Shown: piece by piece, positions 35,012 through 60,063 of the stretch | How the letters are laid out: each line of letters opens with the position of its first letter | Numbering within the stretch: position 1 is the first letter of the stretch | Assembly: GCF_000801105.2 (NCBI RefSeq) | Contig: NC_079517.1 | Coordinates: 23,442,973-23,506,972 of the forward strand | Origin: Raphanus sativus | Lineage: Eukaryota; Streptophyta; Magnoliopsida; Brassicales; Brassicaceae | Reading direction: 5' to 3' | Length of the DNA: 64,000 nucleotides | The notes under the pieces: generated by a model | Told to the model about the DNA's origin: nothing | Databases searched by the model: none | What the model saw: only the letters and a program-made list of their open reading frames with translations | Program-made: the position numbers and the translations under genes

Positions 35012-35985
35012 TGATAGAACCAAAATCATGATCAGTCTTTCGGTAAGGTTGATATAGACTCTGCTCCGGAAGGATAGAGAACTGGTGGGATGAATGGTGA
35101 CACAATGGGATGCGGAAAGGCCCAATGATACTACCAGACTTCAGTTGTTGCCGGATGTGACGCATCGGTCCAACAAAAGAAGGATCGAGACTTGGAGATA
35201 ACCTCACCAAGAAACTAGAAATGTTCTTGACAAAGAACAGAGAGTAAAAACTCATAAAAGAAAGAAAATTCGTTGATGGCATTGCAATGAAATGGGACTA
35301 CAATATATAGAGTTTTGAGTCAAAGAGAAATAAAGAAAAGTGCAGAAAACAATGCATAGAAAACATAAATCTGACTAGATCTAGTCAAAGTGTGGAAAGC
35401 AAGGAAGACTAGTCAAAGTGCGGATTCTGATGTTGACTAGTCCAGATTCAGAAAGATGTCCAGGTTCATGCTGGTCGTGCACACCATGCTGGGAAGGATA
35501 CAGACACACGCGGGACGATCGACACATGTATGAATTCGCGAGAACTAAACATCACCTGATTTGTACATGGCATAACTCCCTCATCTGAACTCCGTTTGAT
35601 CTGATTCTTTTTCGAGGAGTTCCATAATTGAGTTGAGCACATTCTCCAAGTGGTTTCAAGCGAAGAAACATCATGGTTTAGAAGATATGCTTCGAACAAT
35701 GAATGTATATCTGTGTTGCTTCTCAGGTGGTTTGATGGTCGAACCAGCTCGGAAGGTCGAACCAACTTGCTCAGCTCGTCCGAGTGGGTGTTAATCCAGC
35801 TCAGCTCGTCCATGATAGTGTCATTCCAGCTCACTTGAGTATTCAGCTCATCCAAGATTGCATAGATGATAACGAAATTGGCATAATCTGATGAGAAAAC
35901 CTCTGCTAGGTCTAACTGGTCAACAAGGTCACCACCTTGAGCCGTGTCCATGAACCAAGCAGGACGGTGCTGGATTTTGGGTGCA
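35012..35985 (-). repeat. 5' LTR of the outer GAG-type element
   Basis: It pairs with 24008-24960. The region near 35847-35886 (CTCATCCAAGATTGCATAG..) has no counterpart in the 3' LTR, and scattered substitutions are present, so this pair is clearly older or more recombined than that of the inner autonomous element. Confidence 0.85.
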
Positions 35986-36139
35986 TTAGAAACTTCCATT
36001 TTTCCGATTATGGAAGAGTTCTATTATTTGAAGCCGACATCTACAACTATAAAAGGGGAGCCCAAACCCTAGAATGAGGGATCGACTATTCGAGACTTAG
36101 AGATTAGATTTTAGGCGACTAGAACTAGGGTTCATACAC
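35986..36139 (+). repeat. LTR/leader-like fragment (right part)
   Basis: This lies between the outer GAG-type element and Tat element 2. It contains CTATAAAAGG at 36047-36056 and a downstream AAACCCTAG..AACTAGGGTTC leader-like segment. It is possibly the continuation of 23839-24007. Confidence 0.4.
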
Positions 36140-37350: not shown

Positions 37351-38120
37351 GGAGGTACGGATCAATCTTACCCGCAAAAACCGCTCAACAATCAGAAACG
37401 AGATTGAAATCTCATCTTTCCCAGACGAGATCTCATTCAGCGAGAGAGCAGCGGTCGAACGGACCAAACCTCGCGACGACCTCTTGGTAATTGAGCTGAT
37501 AATCCACGACATCGACGTCGCAAGAGTACTGATTGACACCGGAAGCTCGGTTAACATCATCTTCAAAGAGACTCTCGCAATGATGCAGGTCGATCCATCG
37601 AAAATCACTGAAGACTCCAGCCCGCTGGTAGGGCTTTCAGGAGAACCCACTATCGCTTCGGGGTCGATCAGTTTCGCAGTAAAAGCCGGAACGGCAGAAA
37701 TAATCAGGGAATTCCTAGTAGTGGATCTCCCGGAATCGTATAACGCGATCATGGGCACTCCCTGGATAAATTTCATTAGAGCAGTTCCGTCAAACGTATC
37801 ATCTGTGCCTTAAGTTTCTGACCCCCCCACGGGATTTAAACGATCTGGGGAAATCCCAGAATGTTGCGGATATGCCTCGCTGCGGAACTCAAGCGCAAGA
37901 GGTCCGATCTCGACACCGCTCCCAAGAAAACTAAGAAAACGATTTCAGACGATGACACGCATGATTTGGCTGAACTCTTCTGGCAATCTCGAAGGGCTGA
38001 TGCCATAGAAGAAAAATGCGAACCAACCTGTGAACCCGTAATTACGGTTTGTCTCGATGACGCATTCCCAGAGCGATGCGTCGAAATCAGAGCCAATCTC
38101 CGCGAACCCTTGAAGACAAA
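37344..38120 (+). pseudogene. Protease region of Tat element 2 (gag missing)
   Basis: The first frame (to 37813) carries the retropepsin signature VARVLIDTGSSVNIIF with an intact DTG and, further on, YNAIMGTPWINFIRAVPS. It stops at 37813 and reading resumes from 37861 in a frame with KRKRSDLDTAPKKTKK and ERCVEIRANLREPLKTK, the normal linker to RT. That linker is cut at 38120 by the tandem GAG-type array and continues at 49471 with KLVTCLKKNLHTFAW. The PBS lies directly against the protease side, so at least the whole gag has been deleted. Confidence 0.75.
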
Positions 38121-38121
38121 A

Positions 38122-39483
38122 TGTTGTGGGCACAGGGTCAGGCCTTCCGGAAATATGGAACTGAGGCTTAGTCCAATAGTTCGGATTGGTACCTGAAACA
38201 AAGAGTGAACCTTTTTATGAGTTTTATATATTTATGATGCAAACAGAAGAAATTATGAATATGAATCAGAATGATAATAAGAATAAAAGCAAATAGAAAA
38301 GGGATAGATTGATGGAGATGGGATCTTTGTTGCTGGACTGAAGTCACTCTCAACAAGATCAAATGGATGGAAGATGGATAGAAGATGGATAGATATGGGA
38401 TTTGCTTGCTGGACTGAAGTCTCTCTCAAGGCAAATCAGTAGATGGAAATGATGGGGGATTGAGGACGCCACAAGACACTATGGAAAGGAGTCTTGATAA
38501 ATCAAGGTGCTCTGGAGCTGCTTCTCACAAACTCTAAAGACTTGAAACAATAGTTTATAAGAAAACTAGAAAACTGAATAATTCATATTACTTTCAAAGA
38601 TGGGCGATTATTACAAAGACAACTACTGAGCTTATATAGGCTCGACCTTGAGACTCTCTAACAGTCTAAAAATGACTAATGGAAAGAAATAAACTTGAAA
38701 TAAAAGTCTTGGAAGCAAAGGCTTTGATGGCTCCAAAGAAATAGCTTTTAGCTTGATTTATGCTCTCTTCAAAGGGGAAACTTGATCTGATCTTGTATCT
38801 TGATGTTTTCTTGAACCTGGATGGTTTAAAAGGATAGGAAAGCATCCTGGGAATCTTCTTCATGGCTGGATAGGAGCTGATCACGTTCCTGGTTTGAACA
38901 GAAAAGAGCTGTTGGACATTAATGTCGGTTTGCTCCAAATATGGTAAGTGTGATTGCAAAAGAATCCATCTGATCCTCTGGCTGCTGGTGCATGGTATGA
39001 AGTCTTGGATGTATTCTGGTTGGCTTAGAGTATCTCCTGGTTTCCTCAAATAGGTTTGGATCGGACCAAATTGAATTGTTTGACAGCTTTCCCAAACTGA
39101 TGTCGGGTTGACCGGTTTTGGGAATTTGAGTAAACCAAGTGGATCTTCTGGTTGGATTGGACTTTGGGCTTGGTTCTTCTTGCTCTGGACTCCTAAAAGG
39201 CTCTCTTTAATATAATAACTGGCTTCAGACGAGACCTCTTCAGGGTTAGACTTGTATGGACCGAAATGTAGCTGATCTGACCCATTGGATGTTGAGAAGA
39301 TGGGCTGACTTGTAAAATTCATAACTTCCTGATCCGAGAAGCTTTTCTTGAATTTCCAAGCCTCAGTAATTCTTTGATGAGTTAGGCTTCTTCGAAAATT
39401 GGTTTCATGATAAAAATCCTTCTGGTTGTTGAGATATTCGCCTTGGACTGAACCTCTGTCGCTGGCACCTCCAAAGTGGCCGG
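38122..39483 (-). repeat. LTR copy 1 of the tandem array, 5'-truncated
   Basis: On the minus strand it ends CCCACAACA at 38122. It lacks about 60-70 bp at its other end: GTGGCCGG is followed directly by TTGTGGGCAC of copy 2. It encodes a 275-codon minus-strand frame (39493-38666) homologous to those of the other copies. A TATA-like CTATATAAG lies at 38639-38631. Confidence 0.85.
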
Positions 39484-40870
39484 TTGTGGGCACAGGGTCA
39501 GGCCTTCCGGAAATATGGAACTGAGGCTTAGTCCAATAGTTTGGATTGGTACCTGAAACAAAGAGTGAACCTTTTTATGAGTTTTATATATTTATGTTGC
39601 AAACAGAAGCAATTATGAATATGAATCAGAATGATAATAAGAATAAAAGCAAATAGAAAATGGATAGATTGATTGAGATGGGATCTTTGTTGCAGGACTG
39701 AAGTAACTCTCAACAAGATCAATGGATGGAAGATGGATAGATATGGGATTTGCTTGCTGGACTGAAGTCTCTCTCAAGGCAAATCAGTAGATGAAAATGA
39801 TGGGGGATTGAGGACGCCACAAGACACTATGGAAAGGAGTCTTGATAAGTCAAGGTGCTCTGGAGCTGCTTCTCACAAACTCTAAAGACTTGAAACAATA
39901 GTTTTTAAGAAAACTAGAAAACTGAATAATTCATATTACTTTCAAAGATGGGTGATTATTACAAAGACAACTACTGAGCTTATATAGGCTCGACCTTGGG
40001 ACTCTCTAACAGTCTAAAAATGACTAAAGGAAAGAAATAAACTTGAAATAAAAGTCTTGGAAGCAAAGGCTTTGATGGCTCCAAAGAAATAGCCTTTAGC
40101 TTGATTTATGCTCTCTTCAAAGGGGAAACTTGATCTGATCTTGTATCTGGATGTTTTCTTGAACCTGGATGGTTTAAGAGGATAGGAAAGCATCCTGGGA
40201 ATCTTCTTCATGGCTGGATAGGAGCTGATCACGTTCCTGGTTTGAACAGAAAAGAGCTGTTGGACATTAATGTCGGTTTGCTCCAAATATGGTAAGTGTG
40301 ATTGCAAAAGAATCCATCTGATCCTCTGGCTGCTGGTGCATGGTATGAAGTCTTGGATGTCTTCTGGTTGGCTTAGAGTATCTCCTGGTTTCCACAAATA
40401 GATTTGGGTCGGACCAAATTGAATTGTTTGACAGCTTTCGGTTTGACCGGTTTTGGGAATTTGAGTAAACCAAGTGGATCTTCTGGTTGGATTGGACTTT
40501 GGGATTGGTTCTTCTTGCTCTGGACTCCTAAAAGGCTCTCTTTAATATAATAACTGGCTTTAGACGAGACCTCGTCAGGGTTAGACTTGTATGGACCGAA
40601 ATGTAGCTGATCTGACCCATTGGATGCTGAGAAGATGGGATGACTTGTAAAATTCATAACTTCCTGATCCGAGAAGCTTTTCTTGAATTTCCAAGCCTCA
40701 GTAATTCCTTGATGAGTTAGGCTTCTTCTAAAATTGGTTTCATGAAACAAATCGTTCTGGTTGTTGAGATATTCTCCTTGGACTAGACCTCTGTCGCTGG
40801 CACCTCCAAAGTGGCCGGTTTGGATAGTTGGTTGACCTCTGGTTCAGCTACTGGTTCGATGACCACATCA
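39484..40870 (-). repeat. LTR copy 2 of the tandem array
   Basis: It lacks two or three terminal bases at the junction with copy 1 and ends at TGATGTGGTC (40870) next to the purine tract of the first internal region. Relative to copy 3 it lacks a stretch after TTTGACAGCTTTC near 40438 (CCAAATTGATGTC is missing). Confidence 0.85.
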
Positions 40871-43037
40871 TCCCCTCCCCCTTGTGAAGGTTTTGACCTC
40901 AAAACTGGATAACCTGATACACCACAATAGAGCAAGTCAGGTTTCATTCTCTTTTGGGAGTTTATAACCTTAGCTTGATACAATGTTGGTTTGGTAATGG
41001 GCTGTGCATCTGGTGGCTCTTCTTTAAAAAGATGGGAGATGATCACGCCTCTGGCTTGGATAGTGTCATTTCTTCTCTTCTGGAGTTGATGGTACTTCAC
41101 ACTACTGGTAACCTCATTGTTGATCATCTTTGGGACTGATTCTCCAAGCAATAAAAGATTATCCGGTGGGATATCTTTAAAGCTTTCTTCTTTGCAACCT
41201 AGGCTGGTATGACCATCTTCTTGTCTTATTCCTGGATCAAAACTCTCTGGAAAAGACAAGTGAGTCATATCTAAATAAACAATTGTCATAGATGTTTTAA
41301 GATCAGAGAAACTTCCCTTGCTGAATTTAAATGGGACTAGTTCAGCATCACTTTTATGGACAGCATCTATTGACAATATGGTTAAGGCATCTTGTTGCAA
41401 GACTTCATCACGAATTGGAATGCCTTTTTCTTTGCTTATACCTGGGTCAAAACATCTTGGCAAAGACAAGTTTATTATACCAAAGTAAAGGAATTTATAA
41501 ACTGATGAAAACAAAGAACAAAGAACCTTACTTTCAGCTGTGGAAGGAAGAAATTTTATTTCTTTGTTTGGCTTGCTCTCACCTTGGTCTCCTGTACCTA
41601 TTTCACTTTCCCTTGGACAAGACAAGTGCATTAATCTTATCATGGAAATAATAATAGCTTTCTGATCCATAGTGAAATTTACCTCAGGTTTTGGCACTTG
41701 AACAATTCTTTGTTCAGATTTTGGTTTCCACTTGTGGTGTGGATTTTGATTGAGCTCATGGTCTCGCTCGGCCCTTGGCACTTCAGTATGCATAGAGCTC
41801 TCATCTGGTATCCCTGTACCAATAATATAAAAATTTAAACCAGCATCTAAAGGTGATGTTAAACACTTACCTTGGTTTGATACTTTGATTATTGGTTTTG
41901 CTTCTTTAAGCAACAAATCATTTCTTCCAGCCTCACTTATGGCTTCCTCCTCTTTATCAATGCCATGCTGGTAGACTAGGTCTTCTCTTTTAAGTTCTTG
42001 CTCCTTAATTCCTGATATAATACCTTTTGACAAAGACAAGTGCATTATACAAGAATTTGGAACCAACAAATCAGATTGAATAAAACTATCACTTATTTTA
42101 AACAATTCAGTTTTTGTTTCTAGTGATGTTTCTTTCAATACTTGTTTAATTGGACAAGCTTCAGCAAGGTGTCCTATTTTAAAACATGTCTGATCTTTCA
42201 GAATTTTAAAATCTGAAGACTTACCTTGGCTTGATGTGTCCTCCTCTTTGGGTTCTAAAATCTCCTTGTTCCTTGGACATAATTCTTTTTGAACTTTGAT
42301 TCAAACAAGGATGTGGATTTCGGATTTTTCTGGACCTCAGGACCTGTCTTAACTTTCTTTGACAAAGACAAGTGTCTCATACCAGTGGGAGATGATTCAT
42401 AAACCAATTTACCAAGTATAGGATTTACCATAGCCTTTACTTGACCACTTTCATGTTCTGGTTTTGGAGTTGGCTTGCACAGCATGTATGGACTGATGCT
42501 TTTAGTCTCCTTCATGGTCACTGGCACGCCATGGTGTTGGGACTTCTCTACAAACTCCTTGTACATTCTGATTTTGACGTCTTTCCAATCTAACAATTGT
42601 TCAGTGCTCTCCTTTAACCACCATGTGTAGGCATCTTTGGTAAAGGCTTGGACAGCTTGTAACAACATCTTTTCTTTGGGAACTTTGTTGGAAAGCAGCC
42701 ACTTATCCATGTTCTTTTCCCATCTTAAATACACCTCTGGGTTCCTGCTTAAACCTGAAAACACTAAGATGTCAGATGTATAAGCACAACTTTTGATTAC
42801 TTCCCTTTTCGGACCGATTGATGTGTATGGAGCTCTCCATGAGGGGTCTGGTGGTTTGGGCTCGACATAAACAGCCTCAGGTACTTCTCCAAATCTACTT
42901 TCTCCAGGTTTTGGTCGTCGGCCTTGTGCCTTGTCTCTTTTCTCCATCTGAGCAATCTGCTTTTTGAGTTTTTGTAAGGCTACAACTTGCTGGCTCAGTG
43001 TGGCCTCCATTGTTTGGCCTGGTTCTTTCACTCCCAT
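40783..43037 (-). pseudogene. GAG-type ORF, internal region 1 (frameshifted)
   Basis: This is the same protein as 45083-47338 but broken. The N-terminal frame (ATG at 43037 to 42255) loses phase at about 42298, where the other copy has one more T (GAACTTTTGATT against GAACTTTGATT), and ends NYVQGTRRF. The rest reads in a second frame (42138-40783). The two copies are otherwise near identical, with a handful of substitutions. Confidence 0.85.
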
Positions 43038-43768
43038 TTCTTCCTGCAACAATCTCAAAGATCAAGTGAAGAATAGAAAAATCTGATTGAACCAAAATAA
43101 ACCCAATGCAATAATGAAATTTAAACTAAACCGAGAAATATGCAATTATGAACCGATATGAAATAAACTATGCAATAAAAACTTTTTATTTTTCTTTTCT
43201 GATGCAAGCACGAAATGGAGAGACAAATATGATATGAAACAATAACTAGGATGATTTTTTTTTGAATTTTCAGATTTGATATGCAATGCAAACAGAAATG
43301 GAAACAACTTAGAATGCATAATTTTTTTGACTTTTTTTTTAAAATGGAAACAAATAAATGCAAACACTTTTTTTTTTATAAATGCAAATATCAAAATGAT
43401 GAATCAAATATGATATGCACGAAATTAAAATGATATGCTTTTTTTTTTAACTTTGCAATGCAAGAATCAAAATAATGCAAAATGCAGATTTTTTTTTTTT
43501 AAATGAATGCACAAAATATAAATATGGCAAATGGAGCTGGGCAACGAATGCAAACAAGCTAATGAGTAAAACTTGAATCCTAGATGATCTAAACGAAAAT
43601 AAAATTGTCTTCCTCTTTTTATACATTTTTTTTAATGCAACAAGAACACAAAAATGCAGAAACTGTTTTTATTGCTTTTTGATTTATAAAGACAAAACAA
43701 ATGCAAGCAAATATGAAATGCAAGGATAGATATCACCTTAGTCAGGAGCTCGGGCTCTGATACCAAAA
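43038..43768 (-). other. 5' leader of internal region 1
   Basis: About 730 bp is very AT-rich with many poly-T tracts and ATGCAA repeats between the PBS (minus-strand TGGTATCAGAGC, 43765-43754) and the ATG. No gene. The same leader recurs at 47339-48069 with small indels in the T-runs. Confidence 0.7.
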
Positions 43769-45170
43769 TGTTGTGGGCACAGGGTCAGGCCTTCCGGAAA
43801 TATGGAACTGAGGCTTAGTCCAATAGTTCGGATTGGTACCTGAAACAAAGAGTGAACCTTTTTATGAGTTTTATATATTTATGATGCAAACAGAAGCAAT
43901 TATGAATATGAATCAGAATGATAATAAGAATAAAAGCAAATAGAAAAGGGATAGATTGATGGAGATGGGATCTTTGTTGCTGGACTGAAGTCACCCTCAA
44001 CAAGATCAATGGATGGAAGATGGATAGATATGGGATTTGCTTGCTGGACTGAAGTCTCTCTCAAGGCAAATCAGTAGATGGAAATGATGGGGGATTGAGG
44101 AGGCCACAAGACACTATGGAAAGGAGTCTTGATAAGTCAAGGTGCTCTGGAGCTGCTTCTCACAAACTCTAAAGACTTAAAACAATAGTTTTTAAGAAAA
44201 CTAGAAAACTGAATAATTCATATTACTTTCAAAGATGGGTGGTTATTACAAAGACAACTACTGAGCTTATATAGGCTCGATCTTGGGACTCTCTAACAGT
44301 CTAAAAATGACTAAAGGAAATAAATAAACTTGAAATAAAAGTCTTGGAAGCAAAGGCTTTGATGGCTCCAAAGAAATAGCCTTTAGCTTGATTTATGCTC
44401 TCTTCAAAGGGGAAACTTGATCTGATCTTGTATCTGGATGTTTTCTTGAACCTGGATGGTTTAAGAGGATAGGAAAGCATCCTGGGAATTTTCTTCATGG
44501 CTGTATAGGAGCTGATCACGTTCCTGGTTTGAACAGAAAAGAGCTGTTGGACATTAATGTCGGTTTGCTCCAAATATGGTAAGTGTGATTGCAAAAGAAT
44601 CCATCTGATCCTCTGGCTGCTGGTGCATGGTATGAAGTCTTGGATGTCGTCTGGTTGGCTTAGAGTATCTCCTGGTTTCCACAAATAGATTTGGGTCAGA
44701 CCAAATTGAATTGTTTGACAGCTTTCCCAAATTGATGTCGGTTTGACCGGTTTTGGGAATTTGAGTAAACCAAGTGGATCTTCTGGTTGGATTGGACTTT
44801 GGGATTGGTTCTTCTTGCTCTGGACTCCTAAAAGGCTCTCTTTAATATAATAACTGGCTTCAGACGAGACCTCGTCAGGGTTAGACTTGTATGGACCGAA
44901 ATGTAGCTGATCTGACCCATTGGATGCTGAGAAGATGGGCTGACTTGTAAAATTCATAACTTCCTGATCCGAGAAGCTTTTCTTGAATTTCCAAGCCTCA
45001 GTAATTCCTTGATGAGTTAGGCTTCTTCTAAAATTGGTGTCATGAAACAAATCGTTCTGGTTGTTGAGATATTCTCCTTGGACTAAACCTCTGTCGCTGG
45101 CACCTCCAAAGTGGCCGGTTTGGATAGTTGGTTGACCTCCGGTTCAGCTACTGGTTCGATGACCACATCA
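43769..45170 (-). repeat. LTR copy 3 of the tandem array
   Basis: This is 1402 bp, complete, and shared as the 5' LTR of internal region 1 and the 3' LTR of internal region 2. It contains a 249-codon minus-strand frame (45050-44301). Confidence 0.9.
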
Positions 45171-47338
45171 TCCTCTTCCCCTTGTGAAGGTTTTGACCTC
45201 AAAACTGGATAACCTGATACACCACAATAGAGCAAGTCAGGTTTCATTCTCTTTTGGGAGTTTAGAACCTTAGCTTGATACAATGTTGGTTTGTTAATGG
45301 GCTGTGCATCTGGTGGCTCTTCTTTAAAAAGATGGGAGATGATCACGCCTCTGGCTTGGATAGTGTCATTTCTTCTCTTCTGGAGTTGATGGTACTTCAC
45401 ACTATTGGTAACCTCATTGTTGATCATCTTTGGGACTGATTCTCCAAGCAATAAAAGATTATCCGGTGGGATATCTTTAAAGCTTTCTTCTTTGCAACCT
45501 AGGCTGGTATGACCATCTTCTTGTCTTATTCCTGGATCAAAACTCTCTGGAAAAGACAAGTGAGTCATATCTAAATAATCAATTGTCATAGATGTTTTAA
45601 GATCAGAGAAACTTCCCTTGCTGAATTTAAATGGGACTAGTTCAGCATCACTTTTATGGACAGCATCTATTGACAACATGGTTAAGGCATCTTGTTGCAA
45701 GACTTCATCACGAATTGGAATGCCTTTTTCTTTGCTTATACCTGGGTCAAAACATCTTGGCAAAGACAAGTGTATTATACCAAAGTAAAGGAATTTATAA
45801 ACTGATGAAAACAAAGAACAAAGAACCTTACTTTCAGCTGTGGAAGGAAGAAATTTTATTTTTTTGTTTGGCTTGCTCTCACCTTGGTCTCCTGTACCTA
45901 TTTCACTTTCCCTTGGACAAGACAAGTGCATTAATCTTATCATGGAAATAATAATAGCTTTCTGATCCATAGTGAAATTTACCTCAGGTTTTGGCACTTG
46001 AACAATTCTTTGTTCAGATTTTGGTTTCCACTTGTGGTGTGGATTTTGATTGAGCTCATGGTCTGGCTCGGCCCTTGGCACTTCAGTATGCATAGAGCTC
46101 TCATCTGGTATCTCTGTACCAATAATATAAAAATTTAAACCAGCATCTAAAGGTGATGTTAAACACTTACCTTGGTTTGATACTTTGATTACTGGTTTTG
46201 CGTCTTTAAGCAACAAATCATTTCTTCCAGCCTCACTTATGGCTTCCTCCTCTTTATCAATGCCATGCTGGTAGACTAGGTCTTCTCTTTTAAGTTCTTG
46301 CTCCTTAATTCCTGATATAATACCTTTTGACAAAGACAAGTGCATTATACAAGAATTTGGAACCAACAAATCAGATTGAATAAAACTATCACTTATTTTA
46401 AACAATTCAGTTTTAGTTTCTAGTGATGTTTCTTTCAATACTTGTTTAATTGGACAAGCTTCAGCAAGGTGTCCTATTTTAAAACATGTCTGATCTTTCA
46501 GAATTTTAAAATCTGAAGACTTACCTTGGCTTGATGTGTCCTCCTCTTTGGGTTCTAAAATCTCCTTGTTCCTTGGACATAATTCTTTTTGAACTTTTGA
46601 TTCAAACAAGGATATGGATTTCGGATTTTTCTGGACCTCAGGACCTGTCTTAACTTTCTTTGACAAAGACAAGTGTCTCATACCAGTGGGAGATGATTCA
46701 TAAACCAATTTATCAAGTATAGGATTTACCATAGCTTTTACTTGAACACTTTCATGTTCTGGTTTTGGAGTTGGCTTGCACAGCATGTATGGACTGATGC
46801 TTTTAGTCTCCTTCATGGTCACTGGCACGCCATGGTGTTGGGACTTCTCTACAAACTCCTTGTTCATTCTGATTTTGACGTCTTTCCAATCTAACAATTG
46901 TTCAGTGCTCTCCTTTAACCACCATGTGTAGGCATTTTTGGTAAAGGCTTGGACAGCTTGTAACAACATCTTTTCTTTGGGAACTTTGTTGGAAAGCAGC
47001 CACTTATCCATGTTCTTTTCCCATCTTAAATACACCTCTGGGTTCCTGCTTAAACCTGAAAACACTAAGATGTCAGATGTATAAGCACAACTTTTGATTA
47101 CTTCCCTTTTCGGACCGATTGATGTGTATGGAGCTCTCCATGAGGGGTCTGGTGGTTTGGGCTCGACATAAACAGCCTCAGTTACTTCTCCAAATCTACT
47201 TTCTCCAGGTTTTGGTCGTCGGCCTTGTGCCTTGTCTCTTTTCTCCATCTGAGCAATCTGCTTTTTGAGTTTTTGTAAGGCTACAACTTGCTGGCTCAAT
47301 GTGGCCTCCATTGTTTGGCCTGGTTCTTTCACTCCCAT
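45083..47338 (-). CDS. GAG-type ORF, internal region 2 (751 codons)
   Basis: The start is the ATG at 47338 (MGVKEPGQTMEATLSQQVVA). Residues 10-40 form a coiled coil with a basic end. Residues 80-165 resemble a Retrotrans_gag domain (SGLSRNPEVYLRWEKNMDKW, EKMLLQAVQAFTKNAYTWWL, KDVKIRMNKEFVE). Around 285-296 a degenerate zinc knuckle (CFKIGHLAEAC) lacks the first Cys. The remainder repeats an LSFP/LSLP-x-S/CFDPGI-type motif (MHLSLSKGIISGIKEQ, IHLSLPRCFDPGISKEKG, THLSFPESFDPGIRQEDG). The frame enters LTR copy 3 and stops at 45083. No protease or polymerase, so mobilisation would need a helper. The homologous reading in LTR copy 4 suggests the ancestral protein continued further into the LTR. Confidence 0.8.
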   Translation of the reverse strand: MGVKEPGQTMEATLSQQVVALQKLKKQIAQMEKRDKAQGRRPKPGESRFGEVTEAVYVEPKPPDPSWRAPYTSIGPKREVIKSCAYTSDILVFSGLSRNPEVYLRWEKNMDKWLLSNKVPKEKMLLQAVQAFTKNAYTWWLKESTEQLLDWKDVKIRMNKEFVEKSQHHGVPVTMKETKSISPYMLCKPTPKPEHESVQVKAMVNPILDKLVYESSPTGMRHLSLSKKVKTGPEVQKNPKSISLFESKVQKELCPRNKEILEPKEEDTSSQGKSSDFKILKDQTCFKIGHLAEACPIKQVLKETSLETKTELFKISDSFIQSDLLVPNSCIMHLSLSKGIISGIKEQELKREDLVYQHGIDKEEEAISEAGRNDLLLKDAKPVIKVSNQGKCLTSPLDAGLNFYIIGTEIPDESSMHTEVPRAEPDHELNQNPHHKWKPKSEQRIVQVPKPEVNFTMDQKAIIISMIRLMHLSCPRESEIGTGDQGESKPNKKIKFLPSTAESKVLCSLFSSVYKFLYFGIIHLSLPRCFDPGISKEKGIPIRDEVLQQDALTMLSIDAVHKSDAELVPFKFSKGSFSDLKTSMTIDYLDMTHLSFPESFDPGIRQEDGHTSLGCKEESFKDIPPDNLLLLGESVPKMINNEVTNSVKYHQLQKRRNDTIQARGVIISHLFKEEPPDAQPINKPTLYQAKVLNSQKRMKPDLLYCGVSGYPVLRSKPSQGEEDDVVIEPVAEPEVNQLSKPATLEVPATEV

Positions 47339-48069
47339 TTCTTCCTGCAACAATCTCAAAGATCAAGTGAAGAATAGAGAAATCTGATTGAACCAGAATA
47401 AACCCAATGCAATAATGAAATTTAAACTAAACCGAGAAATATGCAATTATGAACCGATATGAAATAAACTATGCAATAAAAACTTTTTATTTTTCTTTTC
47501 TGATGCAAGCACGAAATGGAGAGACAAATATGATATGAAACAATAACTAGGATCATTTTTTTTGAATTTTCAGACTTGATATGCAATGCAAACAGAAATG
47601 GAAACAACTTAGAATGCATAATTTTTTTGACTTTTTTTTAAAATGGAAACAAATAAATGAAAACACTTTTTTTTTTATAAATGCAAATATCAAAATGATG
47701 AATCAAATATGATATGCACGAAATTAAAATGATATGCTTTTTTTTTTTAACTTTGCAATGCAAGAATCAAAATAATGCAAAATGCAGATTTTTTTTTTTT
47801 AAATGAATGCACAAAATATAAATATGGCAAATGGAGCTGGGCAACGAATGCAAACAAGCTAATGAGTAAAACTTGAATCCTAGATGATCTAAACGAAAAT
47901 AAAATTGTCTTCCTCTTTTTATACATTTTTTTTTAATGCAACAAGAACACAAAAATGCAGAAACTGTTTTTATTGCTTTTTGATTTATAAAGACAAAACA
48001 AATGCAAGCAAATATGAAATGCAAGGATAGATATCACCTTAGTCAGGAGCTCGGGCTCTGATACCAAAA
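47339..48069 (-). other. 5' leader of internal region 2
   Basis: AT-rich leader with T-runs, a near copy of 43038-43768. The PBS TGGTATCAGAGC is on the minus strand at 48066-48055. No gene. Confidence 0.7.
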
Positions 48070-49471
48070 TGTTGTGGGCACAGGGTCAGGCCTTCCGGAA
48101 ATATGGAACTGAGGCTTAGTCCAATAGTTCGGATTGGTACCTGAAACAAAGAGTGAACCTTTTTATGAGTTTTATATATTTATGATGCAAACAGAAGCAA
48201 TTATGAATATGAATCAGAATGATAATAAGAATAAAAGCAAATAGAAAAGGGATAGATTGATGGAGATGGGATCTTTGTTGCTGGACTGAAGTCACCCTCA
48301 ACAAGATCAATGGATGGAAGATGGATAGATATGGGATTTGCTTGCTGGACTGAAGTCTCTCTCAAGGCAAATCAGTAGATGGAAATGATGGGGGATTGAG
48401 GAGGCCACAAGACACTATGAAAAGGAGTCTTGATAAGTCAAGGTGCTCTGGATCTGCTTCTCACAAACTCTAAAGACTTGAAACAATAGTTTTTAAGAAA
48501 ACTAGAAAACTAAATAATTCATATTACTTTCAAAGATGGGTGATTATTACAAAGACAACTACTGAGCTTATATAGGCTCGATCTTGGGACTCTCTAACAG
48601 TCTAAAAATGACTAAAGGAAATAAATAAACTTGAAATAAAAGTCTTGGAAGCAAAGGCTTTGAAGGGTCCAAAGAAATAGCCTTTAGCTTGATTTATGCT
48701 CTCTTCAAAGGGGAAACTTGATCTGATCTTGTATCTGGATGTTTTCTTGAACCTGGATGGTTTAAGAGGATAGGAAAGCATCCTGGGAATCTTCTTCATG
48801 GCAGGATAGGAGCTGATCACGTTCCTGGTTTGAACAGAAAAGAGCTGTTGGACATTAATGTCGGTTTTCTCCAAATATGGTAAGTGTGATTGCAAAAGAA
48901 TCCATCTGATCCTCTTGCTGCTGGTGCATGGTATGAAGTCTTGGATATCTTCTGGTTGGCTTAGAGTATCTCCTGGTTTCCACAAATATGTTTGGGTCAT
49001 ACCAAATTGAATTGTTTGACAGCTTTCCCAAATTGATGTCGGTTTGACCGGTTTTGGGAATTTGAGTAAACCAAGTGGATCTTCTGGTTGGATTGGACTT
49101 TGGGCTTGGTTCTTCTTGCTCTGGACTCCTAAAAGGCTCTCTTTAATATAATAACTGGCTTCAGACGAGACCTCTTCAGGGTTAGACTTGTATGGACCGA
49201 AATGTAGCTGATCTGACCCATTCGATGCTGGAAGATGGGCTTACTTGTAAAATTCATAACTTCCTGATCCGAGAAGCTTTTCTTGAATTTCCAAGCCTCA
49301 GTAATTCCTTGATGAGTTAGGCTTCTTCTAAAATTTGTTTCATGATAAAAATCCTTCTGGTTGTTGAGATATTCGCCTTGGACTGAACCTCTGTCGCTGG
49401 CACCTCCAAAGTGGCCGGTTTGGATAGTTTGGTTGACCTCCGGTTCAGCTACTGGTTCGATGACCACATCA
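48070..49471 (-). repeat. LTR copy 4 of the tandem array (outermost 5' LTR)
   Basis: This is 1402 bp. Compared with copies 2 and 3 it has one more T in TAGTTTGGTTGACC (about 49427-49440), which keeps EPEVNQ in frame with QTGHFGGASDRGSVQGEYL. Its own frame is interrupted further on, at about 49230 (GATGCTGGAAGATGG lacks bases present in the other copies). Confidence 0.9.
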
Positions 49472-50668
49472 CAAAGCTCGTAACTTGTCTTAAGAAAAAT
49501 CTCCACACATTCGCATGGGCTGCGGAGGACATGCCAGGAATCGACATTAACATTACCTGCCATGAACTAAAGACCGACCTAACGTTTAAACCAATCAAGC
49601 AGAAAAGGCGAAAGCTAGGCCCCGAACGAGCAACCGCGGTCAACGAGGAAGTCGAAAAACTTCTAAAAGTGGGGTCCATAACGGAAGTCCGTTACCCCGA
49701 TTGGCTTGCGAATCCCGTCGTGGTCAAAAAGAAGAACAGAAAATCGCGAGTGTGCGTCGATTTTACCGATCTCAATAAATTTGCCCAAAGGATAGTTTCC
49801 CTTTGCCGCACATCCACCGGTTAGTTGAAGCAACGGCAGGAAACGAACTCTTATCCTTCATGGACGCGTTCTCAGGGTACAATCAGATTATGATGAATCC
49901 CGACGATCACGAGAAAACAACGTTCATCACGGACCGCGGAACGTATTGCTACAAAGTAATGCCTTTTGGCCTTAAGAACACTGGCGCAACGTATCAACGA
50001 CTTGTCAATCGAATGTTCGCCGATCAACTCGGAAAAACAATGGAGGTTTACATCGGCGACATGCTCGTCAAATCCCTCCACGCTAACGACCATGTCGGCC
50101 ATCTTGAGGAGTGCTTCGCTCAGTTGAATTCACATAACATGAAACTCAACCCGGCCAAGTGCAGTTTTGCCGTATCATCGGGTGAATTCCTTGGTTACCT
50201 GGTAACTTATCGCGGGATAGAAGTCAACCCAAAACAAATCGATGCACTCATCGGGGTGGCCTCTCCCAAAAACAAGCGAGAAGTACAAAGTTAACCGTGA
50301 GAGTCGCAACACTCAATCGGTTTATATCCCGCTCAATGGACAAATGCTTACCTTTCTACGATGTCTTGCGGGGAAACAAAAGATTCGAGTGGGCAGATAA
50401 GTGCGAAGACGCATTCAAACAACTAAAGCACTATCTAGCGACTCCCCCAGTTATCGCAAAACCCGTGGAAGGGGAGCCTCTATTCCTATACATAGCGGTA
50501 TCGGCAACGGCCGTTAGTGGCGTCCTGATCCAGGAAGAACGTGGAGATCAGAAACCGATCTTCTACGTAAGCAAAACATTGCTGGACGCCGAAACGCGCT
50601 ATCCTTTAATGGAAAAATTAGCATACGCAGTCGTAACATCAGCACGGAAACTTCGACCGTATTTTTAA
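49471..50668 (+). pseudogene. Reverse transcriptase and RNase H of Tat element 2
   Basis: The frame enters at KLVTCLKKNLHTFAWAAEDM and carries RKLGPERATAVNEEVEKLL and RVCVDFTDLNK. A one-base shift at about 49780 moves it to FPLPHIHRLVEATAGNELLS, SFMDAFSGYNQIMM and GLKNTGATYQRLVNRMFAD. The polymerase box reads YIGDM: the first catalytic Asp of YxDD is replaced by Gly. Another shift at about 50290 leads to ATLNRFISRSMDKCLPFYD and the RNase H-like segment. At 50666-50668 a TAA interrupts RKLRPYF; downstream SHTIVIL and beyond is in the same frame, so it is a nonsense mutation. Confidence 0.85.
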
Positions 50669-52829: not shown

Positions 52830-54000
52830 TAGAAGCGCCAAGACTTAGCTAAATTTTGGTTTTGACACCAAAACTTTTGGTTTCTGGGAATTTTTCTTTC
52901 TTCGAAGTCCTTTTTTCCGTTTTCAATCCACAGACACCATCTCCAAAACTCCCCAGCATCCATCTTCTTCTTCGTCGGTCAAATTCGAGAATACGGGGCC
53001 TCACTTCTTCTCTCAAGATATTAGTAGATCAAACCTCGCTAAAGGAGAAAACCCAAGATGTCAATAACTCTTCAAAGGTTGTTGCTGGAACCGGAAGAGT
53101 TTCTAAGTCCGTTAGTCTCTTAACTCGCCGTACGTTTGCCGGTCTAGCTTCTCCGGCGGCCCCTACGCCTTCTCCTCCCTTGCAACCCGGTGATGTCAAT
53201 AAAACCAGATGCTTCCCGGTCCAATTCCACAAGTGTTAGACCCGTAACTTGCCGTATGTCTGCCGATCTAGGTTTTCCTGCCTCTGCGCCGCCTCGGTCT
53301 CGCTCTGGTGAGAGTAATTGATTTCACTTACAATGGGTTTGCTTGAATTTAGTTCTAGAATATCTACTTTCATTTGAATTGAATTTGAGCTCAAGTCTAT
53401 GGTTTTGTGTATTAGATTCTTGATACATACATGGGGTTGCTTTTAAGGAATTGAAAGGAAGCATCTTTAGATTCTCTTTGGGTTGGGTGTCATCATCGTG
53501 TTCCTTATGCTGAAGTTTTAAGAACTGTGTTATGCTTTAGGTGTTGGTGACAAGAAGGTTACTGAGCCTTACTCTGTTTACACGGTTAGAAGGAAAGCTT
53601 CCAGAAGAAAAAGGAGCAATGCCTTGCCTTCCTCTAGTGCAATGCCTTGCCTTCTTCTTGACTTAATCTCAAGCCCTGGGTATGAAACTCATTCAGTGAT
53701 ATATAATTGTTGACTCTCGGGTAATGGGAGCTATGGACATGTGGAATCAGGGTAGAACATAGTATATGCTCTCTTCTTTCGAAAATAGTAAGAAATCTAG
53801 ATGAATAACTTGTGTTAGTGTTGAACCTATGATGACCATCAAACTTATAGTTTGAAAAAATGTGTTACATGTATCTTCTCGTTGCAGCGACGAGTTAGAG
53901 ATGTAGTGGCATTGAGACAGGTCCAAGACAGAGTGAGAAGCAGAACTCGATGCAGAGGAACTCGTGAAGAAATTAATGGAGAAGCTCGTTATTAAGGATT
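52830..54000 (+). pseudogene. Gene-like fragment captured in CACTA2
   Basis: Exon-like stretches of better coding composition are separated by T-rich, intron-like DNA. The first (about 52856-53240) reads KTQDVNNSSKVVAGTGRVSK then TRRTFAGLASPAAPTP; a repeat of the latter motif follows (about 53250-53310, CRMSADLGFPASAPPR). A second exon-like stretch (about 53541-53680) reads DKKVTEPYSVYTVRRKASRR, and a third lies near 53890-54010 with DAEELVKKLMEKLVIKDYG in one frame. The basic Ser/Arg-rich character and order remind me of plant sororin-like proteins, but this is a weak recollection. Frames do not join cleanly, so I treat it as a decayed captured copy. Confidence 0.4.
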
Positions 54001-54594
54001 ATGGTTTGTTGTTTTATTCTGTTTTAGACTTTGGCTGGTCTTTCTCTGATCTGAGACTTTGCCTGGTCTTATTGAATTGGAGGAGTTCTGTTTGTTTAAG
54101 GCTGTGTGTGGAGAGGTGACTCTAGTGGGTTTGCATTTGTTGCTCAGAAAGCAGTGGAACCTCCTATGAAGGAAAGGAAGATGCTTATGTATTTGTAAAA
54201 GAAGAGACTAAAAAGAAGTGATCTGTTTCTGTCTGAACTTGAGCTCTCTATGTATGAGTATTTCTGTCTTAGATTTACATATAACATAAATAGGTTCAAG
54301 TCTTTGAGATTGAAGTTGTTTGAATTGTGTATAGGCATGAGCAAGGATGTATATTTTAGAATTTAATGAATATAAAATTTTAGTTATAGATCAAAATGCA
54401 ACATATATATGATAATTGGAGTTTTGGTATAAAATATTTTAAATACGACCATATATTTATATAATTAAATAGATATAAAAATCATTGTTTATTGCAAATA
54501 ATTATATTTTAATTTATATGTTTGACTATATATTTTATAAATTTAACGAATATAATTTTTTGTTTATTTGTATTTTGTAATTTGTATTTCAAAA

Positions 54595-54820
54595 AAAAAA
54601 CACTCTAAACCCTAAACCCTAAACATATTTTAAACCTTAAACCCCAAACATGTTTTTAAGTCCTAAACATACACTTTAATATTTTCATAATATAACTTCA
54701 ATGTTAAACTTAAAACTTAAAATTTAATAAAAATCTAATTTCAAATTTAAATCTAAACTTCAAACACTAGACCTAAATCTACACTCTAAACCTAATACCC
54801 TAAACCCCAAATTTAAATCC
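54595..54820. repeat. Degenerate telomere-like (CCCTAAA) tract in CACTA2
   Basis: This holds CTAAACCCTAAACCCTAAAC followed by decayed TAAACCT/CCTAAAC units spread over about 200 bp, then AT-rich DNA to about 55200 with the same flavour. It is an interstitial copy within a transposon, not a chromosome end. Confidence 0.7.
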
Positions 54821-55199
54821 CACATACAGAGTCATTAGTCTAATCTAATATTTGTAACATCAATTCTTAAAATTTTAAAAATTCCTAGTTTTATACTATC
54901 CAATACTTACAAAAGTTAATTTTCAAATTTTAAATCTTAACCTTGTATTTCTATATTCTAAACTAAACCTTAAATATATATAGTTCAAATCCTATACTAT
55001 AGTTCAAATGTTATATCACAAACATTAACATTTTAATAAAAACTGAGTTTTAATGCTGAAACCAAAACATAAAATCATAATTTTGTATTATCTAACATAG
55101 AAACTACCATATAAATTTACCAAAAGATAAAAACAAACAAAGAAATTATCGTGGACCACTAATATTGATATACCCGGATCACATCATTTACCGTTGGAT

Positions 55200-55880
55200 T
55201 GGATTTAATCCAACGGAAGAAATCTTACCATGCTCTCTCTCTCTCTCTTTTTTTTCACTCTCTGTCGACAGGGTCTGTCTCTCTTTACCTTTATCTTTTT
55301 TCTTCTGAAAACTCATTCTCTCCATAGATTCTCTCTCAATCTCTCAATCTCTATCTACAAAATATTTTTTTTTCCTCTTCCTCATTCATCTTCGTGATTT
55401 TTTTTCTTCTGATTTAATGTTCTTTTGTTTCTTCTCTTCTACTCATCTGTTTTTAGATTTGTTTTTTTTTTGTTTCCAGATCTGCGAAATGGTACTGTGA
55501 TAACTGAAGGTGGTGGTGCGACGACCGAGAGAGCAAGACAACAGAGGATATGGCTGAGGGTGTGGCTCGTCGCTGCATCTGTCTCTCTCTGTTTGTTTTA
55601 GATTGTAAAGTTCCCTATTTTATCCAATGTTCTTACTTAAGCTTGTGTAGAGAAGCAGTGATCTTTGGATCTGTTTTAAAGTTCAGTTTTTTAAATGTTG
55701 TTCAGGTTGGAGCCTGGAGTAAGAGGACGAACAGAGGCTTGAGGTTTATGTTATGGAGGCTGGAGGCGGAGTATTAGGGTTACGGAGCTGGAGGCGGAGG
55801 ATTAGGGTTACGGAACTGGAGGCGGAAGCTCGGGGAATGGTGGTTTAGGTCTAGGTTAATTGGGTTTTGGTTTAATGTTT
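55200..55880 (+). other. Second gene-leader-like segment and short tandem repeat in CACTA2
   Basis: This contains a (CT)n run near 55231-55248, a long pyrimidine-rich stretch resembling a plant 5' UTR with intron, then a short frame (55550-55777, 75 codons) with no recognised domain. At about 55753-55825 there are three copies of a roughly 28 bp unit (GGAGGCGGAG plus ATTAGGGTTACG). It may be another captured fragment; no protein identity. Confidence 0.35.
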
Positions 55881-56332
55881 GTAATCTATTTTTGGCTTTT
55901 GCTTTAATGTGTTCTTTAGTTATTTTGTATGATGATTAAAATTAATAAATAAATTTTAATTTTTAATTATGAATTAATTTTCGTATTAATTTTAATTATT
56001 GAATTTTTAACAATTAAATTTTAATTAAATTTTATTTAATTTAATTATTTTATTTTTAATTATAGAATTATTGTATTTATGCCAATATTAAATATTTTAC
56101 AGCAGTAAAAAATTATAAAAAGAACATCATAGCACAAATTAAAAGCTATAAAATGCTAATTTATATCGCATGATTAATGCTATGATATCTAATTTTTATA
56201 GCACACGAAAAATGCTACGATAGGAGGGGGTTTACCATAGCTGCGGCTGTCAGAGCGTTTACAAAAACGCTACTAAAGCCCTATAGTAGCATTTTTCGTG
56301 TGCTACCAATACCGATATTTCTTGTAGTGACA

Positions 56333-57434
56333 GCTTGATCCCCGGAAAGGGGTACGTAGGCAACTCGCTAACCCCCGGGTTCAGCTATCCCCCTGATTTA
56401 AAGGGGGGGGGGGGGAGCGGGGTGCGTATACTCGTATACTCCCACGACTTTCGAAATTCTTAAAAAAAAAAGACTCGAATTTTCGAAACTCTTTACAAAC
56501 AAAGACTCCGAATTTCCGAAACTCTTCGCAAACAAACAACGGATCCAGCATCCACCAAAACGATTATCACATCTAGAAAATTATCACCCGAAGACAATTC
56601 GCGGTCTAAACTACGCTATCCAAAAGCCCGTAACTCTTTTATGGCATAAGAAAAATTCATTCACCGCACTGCGAGACGTCGCTTCGTGCCCGAATAAATT
56701 TTTTCTCATACAAAACTTCTAAAACGCCTACAAAACGGCATCATGTCTTTGTTGCTGATCACAACAAACAAACTCTAACGTCCTAAACAGACAAGGCACC
56801 TAAGGGTAGGCTCTCTTACATCCGACAAGGATAACATAGCGCGCTATACAAGAAAACCGAAATTTTGTCTAAGCGCTTCGTAAAGGAAGTAGCTTCGATT
56901 CGTACTCAGACAAATCATATAAGCCGATAACACTTCACGGATTTTAAAACGGTACGAGTCAGGTTAAAATCGCAAACAGGCAAAACGAAAGCTGATTTGT
57001 CATCGCATAGCCTCAGTCCGAGAGTAAACCTAGGTCTTGCTCTAAACCCAGCCTTGCTGGTACTTAACATCTCATAGGCATAGTATCGACGCTCGATACG
57101 AGATCCTAAAATTTGTCTCTTCAGTTATGTCTGTCCGTTCTACGAACCTTCGCGTAAATTCATAAACCGCGGAAAATCTCGCTTTGTACACGCGATGGAT
57201 ACGGTCATCGTCTGAAAGGCAGGAATGAGACGACAACTCATACCCTGTCCCTCAAACTTCGATATATAGAAGTTCTCATAAATACGCAAATCTAAATTTC
57301 ATTGATTAAAAACCGTAATGCGGTAGGGATTCGAAGCCACAAGTGGCCAGTCCCGAAAATAAAAACACGGCCTTTAAAGGCCGGAACAAACTTAAACTTA
57401 GAAAACACTTGAACCAAAGACCATAACCTTAAAC
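56333..57434 (+). other. 3' non-coding region of Tat element 2
   Basis: This resumes the Tat sequence after CACTA2 (CTTGATCCCCGGAAAGGGGTACGTAGGCAACT style) with a run of 13 G at about 56403-56415, then about 1 kb without a supported gene. The end (AAGCCACAAGTGGCCAGTCC) corresponds to the start of Tat element 1 at 16703. Confidence 0.6.
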
Positions 57435-58140
57435 CTAGACGTCTCCTTCACCTGCCTCGCTCGGGGCGGCGTCATCACCGTACTCTCCAGTCGCCGAACC
57501 GGGCTTCTCGGCATCCTCCGCAGATCGCTCCATAACGCACTCAGATCGCAGATCGGACAGCAGAAGCTCGAAGTCCCTGTCCACGGATCTTAACTCGGAC
57601 CTATGGGCCGATAAGCTATCCTCCTCGGACTGAAGAGACGAAGAAGGATCGTCTTTGAGCGCACGAACAACCGCCATCCCGCCATCAATGCTTGCCGAGA
57701 TCAGATCCCTGCGGTAAACGATCTCTAAGGAGCCCATGATCTCAACAAAACCCGCTAAATGGGACTGGAACCCGGCACGCAAAGCACTCATGGCATCATC
57801 AGCACTACGAAGCGTCAAGTCCTCACTGGTCTCGATCTGACGCTGAAGTCGACGAACTTCCGAAGCCTTTGCCTCCTGGTCTTCTTCTCCTTGATCAAAG
57901 CACTCTCTGTTTTCCCAAGATCTCTCTCAAGCTCACCAACATGCCCCTCAAGCCCAGACACCTTAGCAGTGCAGGAATCCGTAAGCGCCATCATTGTACC
58001 CTGGATTTCGGATATCTGGCCCTGCGCTTCTCCGAGCTCCCTGGCAAGACGAGCGGCCTCGGAGGGAAAGTCGTGTTAACAAGCATAAAATCAAAGCGAA
58101 AGGATAAGTTAAAATCTGGACAACGTACCTTTCCGCGGAG
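57435..58140 (-). pseudogene. Antisense ORF of Tat element 2 (3' part), coiled coil, frameshifted
   Basis: This is the minus-strand counterpart of 16837-17391 in Tat element 1. From about 58080 it reads ARLARELGEAQGQISEIQGT then GLEGHVGELERDLGKTESAL, a strong coiled coil. A one-base shift near 57890 leads into DLTLRSADDAMSALRAGFQS and an acidic C-terminus (EKPGSATGEYGDDAAPSEAG) ending at 57435. A splice-donor-like AAG/GTACG lies near 58130, and an upstream exon fragment continues to the element B insertion. The conserved PF04195-like domain seen in Tat 1 would lie beyond element B. Confidence 0.6.
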
Positions 58141-58193
58141 AACAGGTGCAATGCGCAATACCTCCGGCAGCGAAGGACCTCCCTCGGCAGGTG

Positions 58194-60040
58194 TGATATC
58201 CCATGATTTTAATGAGTTTTAGATTCACATTTTAGCTTATTATAGTCATGGAGTTGCATATTAGGAGTATATATTGCATTAGATTGTTCATTTGCATATC
58301 ACAAGGTTTGGAGTGCACAATTGGAAGTTTTGGGGCTAAATTGAGGACGTTTCTGCAAGTTCAATAGTTTTGAGGCCGATGTGTAAGCATCCGGAAGTTC
58401 AGGGACCAGGGCTGCAATTTACCAATATTCGCTGGGGTTTAATTGGTACAATCAGAAGTTCATGGGTCAATTCGAGGGTACTTTCTGCAATTTAAGAAGT
58501 TCTGGGTGAAAGCAAAGTTATCCAAAGTCCAGGGACCAAAGTTGCAATAAACGAAGAGATCTCCATTGATGAGAAACTTGAGCTCTCTCTCTCGCCGGAT
58601 CTGAAGCACGATGGCGGCGAAGCTTATTCCGGTGACGAGCACGGCAACAACGACAGAGCAGCACGGCGAGGAGATGACCTGAATAAGAGATCCCATGGCG
58701 ACTCTGAGCACAGATGCAATGCGGTGGAGAGCTTTGACGTAACACCGAAGCTTAGTTGTGGTTAGGCTCGCAAAGCATCACGGCAACAGAGGATGTGACT
58801 TGGGCTCGGGCTTGATTCACGAAGAGGATGAAGTCTCCGACTTGGAGCCGTGGGAGATGACGAGCAGCTGAGCACCGGTGCTTTAACGTGGGCTTGATTC
58901 CGACGAGATGGTGAAGCTGAGAAGAAGACGAAGTTGATCCAAGGCGGAGATGAGAGCTCAAGACCGGGTAGAACCCACCGGGATGAACTACTCGGGCGTA
59001 ATTTTCACACGAAGAAGAAGAAAAGACCGGGTTGGTGTACGCGGGTTGACATCGCAGGTGAAGAGAGACCGCGATTGGCCGAGATGACTTGATTATTAAT
59101 TAAATTCCGGTTTAGTCCGGTTTAGCCCTGGTTTGTGGGGTTAAACCAGTTCGAGTTTGGCATCTCCTATAAATAGATTTAGACCTAGAAACCTTATTTT
59201 TATCTCATTTTCTCTCTAGACTTTGCCTCCTTTTGTAAAAGCTTGAATCTTTTATCAATCTAAGGATTTTTGGAATCTTCATCTTATATCTTGTTTCTCT
59301 TTCTTATTCACATGATTAACCTTGAATCTCACATATACTTAAGATTTCTCATGAAGATTAGAGAGTAGACATACTTTTGATTCATGGGCTAGGGTGATTA
59401 AGGGTGATTAGTGAAGATCTAGGGTGTTTAGTCTTAGTTTTACTTCTTTCTTTGCTTGTTGAGGGTTCTCAATGCTATTTTAGTCTTGATCATACTAAAA
59501 TAGATCTCTAGGCTTTCACGCCCGAGAGGTGTTCGATGAAATGCCTGAACCAACTCTTCAATGCTTTTAGCTTACTTTGCCAAAGAGATTTGTTGTTAAA
59601 GGAGCTAAGATTGCTATTAGACTTGTTCTCCATGTTTGCTTTAGTAACATTCAACCTAAGAGATTAGATGCTTGAGTTGCTTTAGCAAAAGAACATTCAT
59701 CTAGAGATAGAGCTTGTTTAGCTTAGTGTCTAGGCATAAGGAAAGTGTTTGATTGATAGCTTGCCACTCTAGTTTTGATCTTAGTCGCCCAAAATCAAGT
59801 CCCTTGTCCCATGGGTCCACCTTAGTATTTGATTGAGTTCTTGCATTAGTTTCTAGATTGGATTTGAGATCACCTTGTTTATATTTCTAGGATCTTAGAT
59901 TGTTACCAATCATCATCTTTCTATTTGCTTAGATTAGGAAAGTTTGTGTATTCTTGGTGCTATAGATCACTAGTTCTCTGTGGGTTCAACAATCTTTTAT
60001 ACTATCATTTGACTAGGACCCTTGAAAAGTCCAATTATCA
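58194..60040 (+). repeat. 5' LTR of element B
   Basis: It starts TGATATCCCATGATTTTAAT and ends TTATCA at 60040, 1847 bp. A TATA box CTATAAATAG lies at 59167-59176. The first 680 bp match 63325-64000. The GC-rich part at 58540-58960 has long antisense open frames that are not supported as genes. Confidence 0.88.
59167..59176 (+). promoter_or_regulatory. TATA box of the element B LTR
   Basis: CTATAAATAG lies about two thirds into the LTR after a GC-rich upstream part and before a T-rich leader (TTTTATCTCATTTTCTCTC). It is repeated in the second LTR copy at 60411-60420. Confidence 0.6.
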
Positions 60041-60043
60041 AAT

Positions 60044-60061: not shown

Positions 60062-60063
60062 CT

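Follow-up and report, generated by a model that had tools for sequence, protein, structure and literature searches.

A 64,000-nucleotide window of the radish genome (Raphanus sativus, tribe Brassiceae; NC_079517.1, 23,442,973-23,506,972) carries on its minus strand, at 38122-49471, an array of gag-only long terminal repeat (LTR) elements. We consider it probable that these elements represent a non-autonomous, gypsy-type LTR family of the Brassiceae in which U3, the unique 3' region of the LTR, forms part of the element's gene. The anatomy of the element, the continuity of its frame in many copies and a blockwise mosaic of U3 between subfamilies can all be read directly from the DNA of the window and of the 433-Mb assembly that was searched with it.

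Read along the minus strand, the array has the order LTR4-internal-LTR3-internal-LTR2-LTR1. Its landmarks are as follows.

48070-49471, minus strand: LTR4, the 5' LTR of the array; 1402 nucleotides, TGATG...ACA, with a 1-nucleotide gap that breaks the U3 frame.
43769-45170, minus strand: LTR3, 1402 nucleotides; U3 frame open from LTR nucleotide 28 to a stop at 44301.
39484-40870, minus strand: LTR2; a 13-nucleotide gap breaks the U3 frame.
38122-39483, minus strand: LTR1, without the first 51 nucleotides and fused to LTR2; a 272-codon U3 frame is open.
48055-48066, minus strand: primer binding site TGGTATCAGAGC, 3 nucleotides past LTR4, repeated past LTR3 at 43754-43765.
45171-45183, minus strand: polypurine tract, read in frame (...SQGEED) and abutting LTR3, with an equivalent before LTR2 at 40871-40883.
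38117-38121, plus strand: target duplication CAAAA beside LTR1, its partner CAAAG lying at 49472-49476 beside LTR4.

Where do the LTRs begin? LTR4 and LTR3 both start with TGATGTGG and end with CCCACAACA, followed by TTT and the primer binding site, which we take to be of the initiator-methionine tRNA type. In LTR4 the TGATGTGG start, at 49471, lies directly against host sequence, and the polypurine tract that precedes LTR2 and LTR3, AAGGGGGAGGGGA or AAGGGGAAGAGGA, is followed at once by TGATG. Because TGATG abuts host sequence in LTR4 and the polypurine tract in LTR2 and LTR3, we place the LTR start 51 nucleotides before the border drawn in the initial annotation of this DNA. The peptide EPEVNQ of LTR4, which had been described as internal-type sequence, consequently belongs to the LTR; its continuity was correctly recognized, the frame going on into QTGHFGG.

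Could the array contain no LTRs at all and be a host gene duplicated in tandem over 4.3 kb? Head-to-tail units of 4.3 kb with a gag-like single frame would suit this explanation. However, TG...CA direct repeats, polypurine tract, primer site and target duplication, the features of an LTR retrotransposon, are all present. The two copies of the target duplication, CAAAG and CAAAA, agree at four of five positions, and joining the flanks across the array restores the plus-strand open frame of a host gypsy element. Dispersed copies with the same ends and with matching 5' and 3' LTRs were also found; on these the host-gene duplication was rejected, and we give it practically no chance. The four LTRs and two internal parts probably originated by recombination between LTRs. 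The array with its fused LTR pair (38117-49476) sits in the pol region of the plus-strand gypsy element.

Four frames of the array concern us here.

45083-47359, minus strand: gag-type frame of 758 codons, which crosses the polypurine tract and ends about 28 codons into LTR3, out of phase with the long U3 frame.
40783-43058, minus strand: the gag-type frame again, split into 42255-43058 and 40783-42138 and likewise ending inside LTR2.
44301-45119, minus strand: U3 coding frame of LTR3, from the start of the module described below to a stop 27 nucleotides before TATATAAG.
38666-39484, minus strand: U3 coding frame of LTR1, 272 codons and a stop.

The U3 frame occupies most of U3, its stop standing 27 nucleotides before the TATA box TATATAAG. 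LTR3 is free of stops over 280 codons at most and LTR1 over 272; in 2000 dinucleotide shuffles of each, no run exceeded 213, and a chance open frame is ruled out for both, as 0 of 2000 shuffles are as long. The long minus-strand frames first reported at 45050-44301 (249 codons) and 39493-38666 (275 codons) were verified. The accompanying statement that all LTR copies keep such a frame applies to two of the four, LTR3 and LTR1, but not to LTR2 or LTR4, which have gaps of 13 nucleotides and 1 nucleotide, respectively. The truncation proposed for LTR2 and LTR3 is also confirmed: a 1-nucleotide length difference common to both shifts the gag frame off the phase of the U3 frame, with stops at 40783 (LTR2) and 45083 (LTR3). 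LTR4 lacks this difference, but its U3 frame is broken elsewhere.

A profile scan of the 758-codon frame, the leader of about 700 nucleotides lying outside it, detected no reverse transcriptase, integrase or other pol domain, and the window's own frame has no match to Pfam gag. Six gag relatives were scanned for Retrotrans_gag: P0065 scores above the cut-off (25.4 vs 24.1), P0042, P0043 and P0048 match below it, and P0044 and P0058 give no match. P0043 carries a zinc knuckle above cut-off.

Does one frame run from gag into the LTR in other copies? Searching the genome with the LTR gave 77 pieces after 40 of 966 first-look candidates had been scored, and 37 loci were fetched, 21 with a gag end upstream (3' LTRs) and 16 without; since unplaced contigs may duplicate single loci, independent insertions may be fewer. 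In the 21 loci the gag end lies 63-66 nucleotides before the TGATG start (45 in L011). Twelve of the 21 3' LTRs hold a single stop-free frame, composed of 123-250 upstream codons (as far as fetched) and 285-360 LTR codons, and SQG(G/V)GDD is read across the polypurine tract in all twelve. Copies with one frame crossing the border between internal region and LTR, whose absence would have counted against the initial annotation, are thus found, and its proposal that the LTR doubles as coding sequence is supported. The U3 frame ends 27 nucleotides before the TATA box in L010 and L019-L024, and about 110 nucleotides before it in L026, L036 and L039. In L017 and L025 its stop codon falls within the TATA box (LTR nucleotides 1075-1084).

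Predicted proteins tell the same story. The LTR frame has 41 protein relatives (of 228 candidates), the named ones from Raphanus and Brassica, and gag has 49 (7989 candidates scored), from Raphanus, Brassica and Sinapis. Gag end and LTR-type tail are fused in one predicted protein in 27 of these 49; another 20 stop short of the gag end under the criterion applied, and two have the gag end but no tail. In B. rapa P0084 the tail flanks gag on both sides (375 amino acids, 96% identity), as LTRs would; P0074 and P0080 also have it on both sides, with gaps and at 74%. Two predictions, P0001 with the LTR tail and P0072 with gag, are annotated as isoforms of a single radish gene, LOC108821333. No relatives of the DNA were found in viral contigs, bacterial and archaeal genomes or phage records.

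How would such a gene be expressed? The element RNA would run R-U5-gag-polypurine tract-U3-R, so that translation of gag would proceed across the polypurine tract, there giving SQGGGDD, and on into the 3' LTR's U3. Depending on the subfamily, the frame ends within the TATA box or else 27 or about 110 nucleotides ahead of it. In the 5' LTR, U3 would be redundant, as its own promoter would not transcribe it. In each replication cycle, both U3s are made from the single 3' U3. A long gag-U3 protein, predicted from the open frames, may be translated and might serve the particle or a mobilising partner, and U3s could be exchanged through template switching during reverse transcription.

The U3 regions of the family are indeed mosaics. 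We compared 20 pairs in 75-nucleotide steps. In most of them the last 600 nucleotides of gag are 0-9% different and U5 0-5%; within the gag end, pairs with L017 show a single step of 24%, and gag is strongly divergent in four pairs (L026-L036, L019-L023, L040-L019 and L011-L017). Many pairs have U3 blocks that are 20-61% different, with sharp steps, and others differ little there (L026-L039, L034-L035, and L035-L026 for the greater part of U3). Across 15 pairs, differences are far more numerous in U3 up to the stop than beyond it, for instance 263/836 versus 55/540; L025 and L026 have 80/1067 differences in U3 and 1/511 after the stop. When the LTR was cut into nine blocks that were grouped at 8%, 31 LTRs fell into 12 haplotypes, and for two coding blocks every one of the four allele combinations occurs. 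A single type of U5, and of the block before the TATA box, is found in 31 of 31 LTRs; the block containing R is of two. Mixing preceded insertion, since the 5' and 3' LTRs of single elements share a haplotype (seven pairs). Template switching is the likely cause of the mosaic.

Is the protein sequence of the U3 frame under selection? The ratio of amino-acid-changing to silent substitution rates (dN/dS) is 0.47-0.79, compared to a simulated neutral mean of 0.77-0.95, and is lower than that mean in all ten pairs, among which copies recur; in a run of six pairs it is 0.54-0.79 against 0.76-0.92. A 55-pair calculation (median 0.58) was discarded, as some of its rows had wrong-frame stretches. Between 3.2 and 7.9 stop-creating changes are expected per pair, and 4-19 stops interrupt each of the other two frames. 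Over the 58 codons of a module that recurs inside family A, an outer element of the window, dN/dS between family A and the window's four LTRs is 0.98-1.35, and 0.93-1.70 with seven genomic LTRs. A value near 1, which the initial annotation had named as a sign against a coding LTR, is therefore seen for this module, whereas the longer frame lies below the neutral mean.

Fifteen module pairs gave a ratio above 1 in 11 of the 12 with a defined value, the remaining one being 0.92; L016 paired with L019, L025 and L040 reaches 2.36-2.94 (6 to 20 of 500 simulations), and three module pairs have 9-11 amino-acid-changing and zero silent differences. Within allele groups, in codon bins that were pooled after looking and that consist of related copies (22 of group C for the first bin, ten for the others; stop variants excluded, one codon in two bins), 55 of 62 changes in codons 18-75 alter the amino acid (neutral about 0.76, P 0.010), as do 53 of 84 in codons 140-245 (neutral about 0.745, P 0.014); the two bins differ at P 0.0005, and codons 76-139 look neutral (41/55). 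This hints at a first part of the U3 frame that changes fast and a later part under mild constraint. Among themselves, the window's LTRs have 9 silent and 38 changing codon differences and look neutral. A test for conservative replacements in gag was positive in six of seven relatives (z 0.0 to 5.1), a weak excess. Judged from these comparisons of sequence, selection on the U3 frame appears weak and uneven.

A number of observations weigh against a U3 that serves as coding sequence. The twelve continuous copies were selected by their stop-free frame. In five of them (L017, L025, L026, L036 and L039) the final 112 nucleotides or so, in L010 coordinates, are in a different frame from that of the other seven while still 84-88% like L010 as DNA, and for this reason the constraint at the end of the frame looks like one on DNA, not on protein. 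The window's own gag frames end about 28 codons into LTR3 and LTR2, and the local lineage may make no use of the remaining U3 frame. R likewise varies in blocks (12-32% compared to L010), so the mosaic is not confined to coding sequence. Single pairs lie weakly below neutral dN/dS (8 to 128 of 400 simulations are as low), the mask on poorly aligned windows pulls the ratio down, the copies were pre-chosen as open, and in two of six pairs a shifted frame is about as low as the true one (0.63 against 0.61; 0.61 against 0.59). In the LTR frame, conservative replacements are not in excess (12 relatives, z -2.0 to 1.1). Most indels between subfamilies have lengths not divisible by three, and they compensate one another (15 pairs, in which divergent blocks align poorly). 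AlphaFold2 yields no confident fold (mean predicted local distance difference test score, pLDDT, 46.5), a model too weak for use, and a folded domain was dropped as a reading.

Do we then look at the remains of a gene? An ancestor may have coded into its LTR, leaving a frame that is now unselected read-through and open through the small number of inactivating changes. Module dN/dS near or above 1, the other frame of the final 112 nucleotides in 5/12 copies, conservative replacements at no excess, shifted frames as low in 2/6 pairs and the broken frames of the window copies would all agree with such a relic. Yet blocks that are 20-60% divergent stay open in several subfamilies, and codons 140-245 have fewer amino-acid changes than neutral (the 53/84 above); we regard a relic frame as unlikely. 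A U3 that belongs to the gene may go further, as a recombining coding cassette: subfamilies alike in gag and U5 would bear divergent U3 coding blocks reassorted by template switching, with diversifying selection on roughly the first 58 codons of the module, and pieces of U3 would pass to other families. This we offer tentatively, as a possibility in which we have limited confidence.

Family A bears on the last point. Its parts in the window, with the element nested in it, are the following.

32607-32784, minus strand: homologous module in the outer family A element, internal and not LTR, inside A's frame.
24962-26108, minus strand: remaining internal frame of family A, 382 open codons, running through the tract into A's 3' LTR and broken there.
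35466-35999, minus strand: open frame of the family A 5' LTR (LTRs at about 35012-35986 and at 24008-24961).
26109-32530, minus strand: autonomous gypsy element nested in A, with LTRs at 26109-26884 and 31755-32530 and target duplication CGGCC.

The initial annotation had rightly noted that a homologous segment is internal in the outer element; it is 75-78% identical and lies within A's own frame. Did the LTR border move, or did the segment? The explanation first offered was a border shift: the segment would have been internal in the common ancestor, as in A, and a new upstream tract would have moved it into U3. The segment is internal in A and in seven A relatives, and a shift might be mechanically easy, as three families of the window (the array, A and the nested gypsy element) read the polypurine tract in frame into their own LTRs. 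However, among 70 relatives of A's left part, counted as gene models, the module follows EIWR in seven, is absent from that place in 28, and 35 are uninformative; P0147, an eighth relative with the module, comes from a separate comparison. Outside the module, A's left part has no BLAST match in the gag relatives. Of 39 modules placed in a tree, the nine internal ones group together (100/94) next to Raphanus P0042 and P0061, and this clade of nine nests within the LTR-borne copies when the tree, built without an outgroup, is rooted at the midpoint. Because of the presence and absence of the module in A relatives and the place of the internal clade inside LTR-borne copies, we prefer capture: the family A module would be a piece taken from a coding U3, which seems to explain the data better than a border shift, an account we hold to be improbable.

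All 40 family A matches listed in the radish genome carry at least part of the module, the query itself having held it, and of the 30 matches taken on as loci, 19 have neither gaps nor stops along the query. The LTR frame of family A continues its internal frame through the tract, with 175 open codons in the 5' copy and a broken 3' copy. The Brassica relatives P0095, P0115 and P0128 have part of the family A LTR frame at both ends. In the nested gypsy element the LTRs are 99.9% identical over 776 nucleotides, and a 1585-codon gag-pol frame ends 73 codons into the 3' LTR.

Other parts of the window are repetitive as well. GC-rich tandem repeats with periods of 28-146 and long open frames on both strands occupy 19043-19840. 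An inverted pair at 16288-16702 and 23398-23814, about 7 kb apart, is 91% identical and has a further copy at 1-250. Direct repeats within 58194-64000 start at 58194/63325 (95%), 58820/60064 (99%) and 59443/60437 (98%); for 53000-64000 no frame of at least 150 codons is listed.

How does the radish family compare to known systems? Retroviral nef and the sag gene of mouse mammary tumour virus encode proteins wholly or partly in the U3 of the 3' LTR. These are separate genes with their own messages, whereas in radish the LTR part extends gag at its C-terminus. Gag-only plant elements, TR-GAG among them, have LTRs and a gag-type protein and are without pol, a likeness to the radish family that we draw from their descriptions; to our knowledge, TR-GAG elements are not defined by a coding LTR.

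Group A of the CRM-clade chromoviruses has a coding region that extends into the 3' LTR, and most elements share TGATG, taken here as the LTR start, as in the radish family (PMC3059260). The frame of these CRM elements is gag-pol, its LTR part belonging to integrase; the radish family, by contrast, is without pol, and its gag tail of about 290 codons fills most of U3. Thus the TGATG start and coding into the 3' LTR, both CRM-type features, are present in radish. No integrase, with CR motif or chromodomain, was found in the element's frame, and the family is not classed as CRM. A further case is provided by the Bingo elements of Beta, chromoviruses presumably of the Reina type. They code into the 3' LTR as well and are autonomous gag-pol elements, unlike the gag-only radish family; the part of the account consulted describes no mosaic or variable LTR coding (PMC3605345). 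For Onsen of Arabidopsis, pairwise recombination between family members during transposition, with recombinant LTRs, is reported; the blocks exchanged in radish include U3 coding sequence, and the part of the Onsen account consulted mentions no coding LTR (PMC5668417). Most subscription journals aside, the literature gave LTR-coding plant elements only among the CRM and Beta chromoviruses, and the portion of PMC7264820 consulted, on additional open reading frames in plant elements, has no passage on such frames in an LTR. Coding into the 3' LTR is, then, already known from CRM and Beta Bingo. New, within the literature searched, are a gag-only family with a mostly coding U3, its block mosaic and a module held in common with the interior of another family.

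A U3 that is nearly all coding has to act as promoter region while also supplying the end of a protein, and each cycle duplicates it. Promoter evolution is thereby coupled to protein evolution, and every LTR becomes a possible donor of a protein end. The assumption that LTRs are non-coding can mislead in the Brassiceae, where gene models built on such frames bear the label of hypothetical or uncharacterized protein. If the tentative reading of U3 as an exchangeable cassette is true, LTRs would be a reservoir of protein ends that retrotransposons can exchange.
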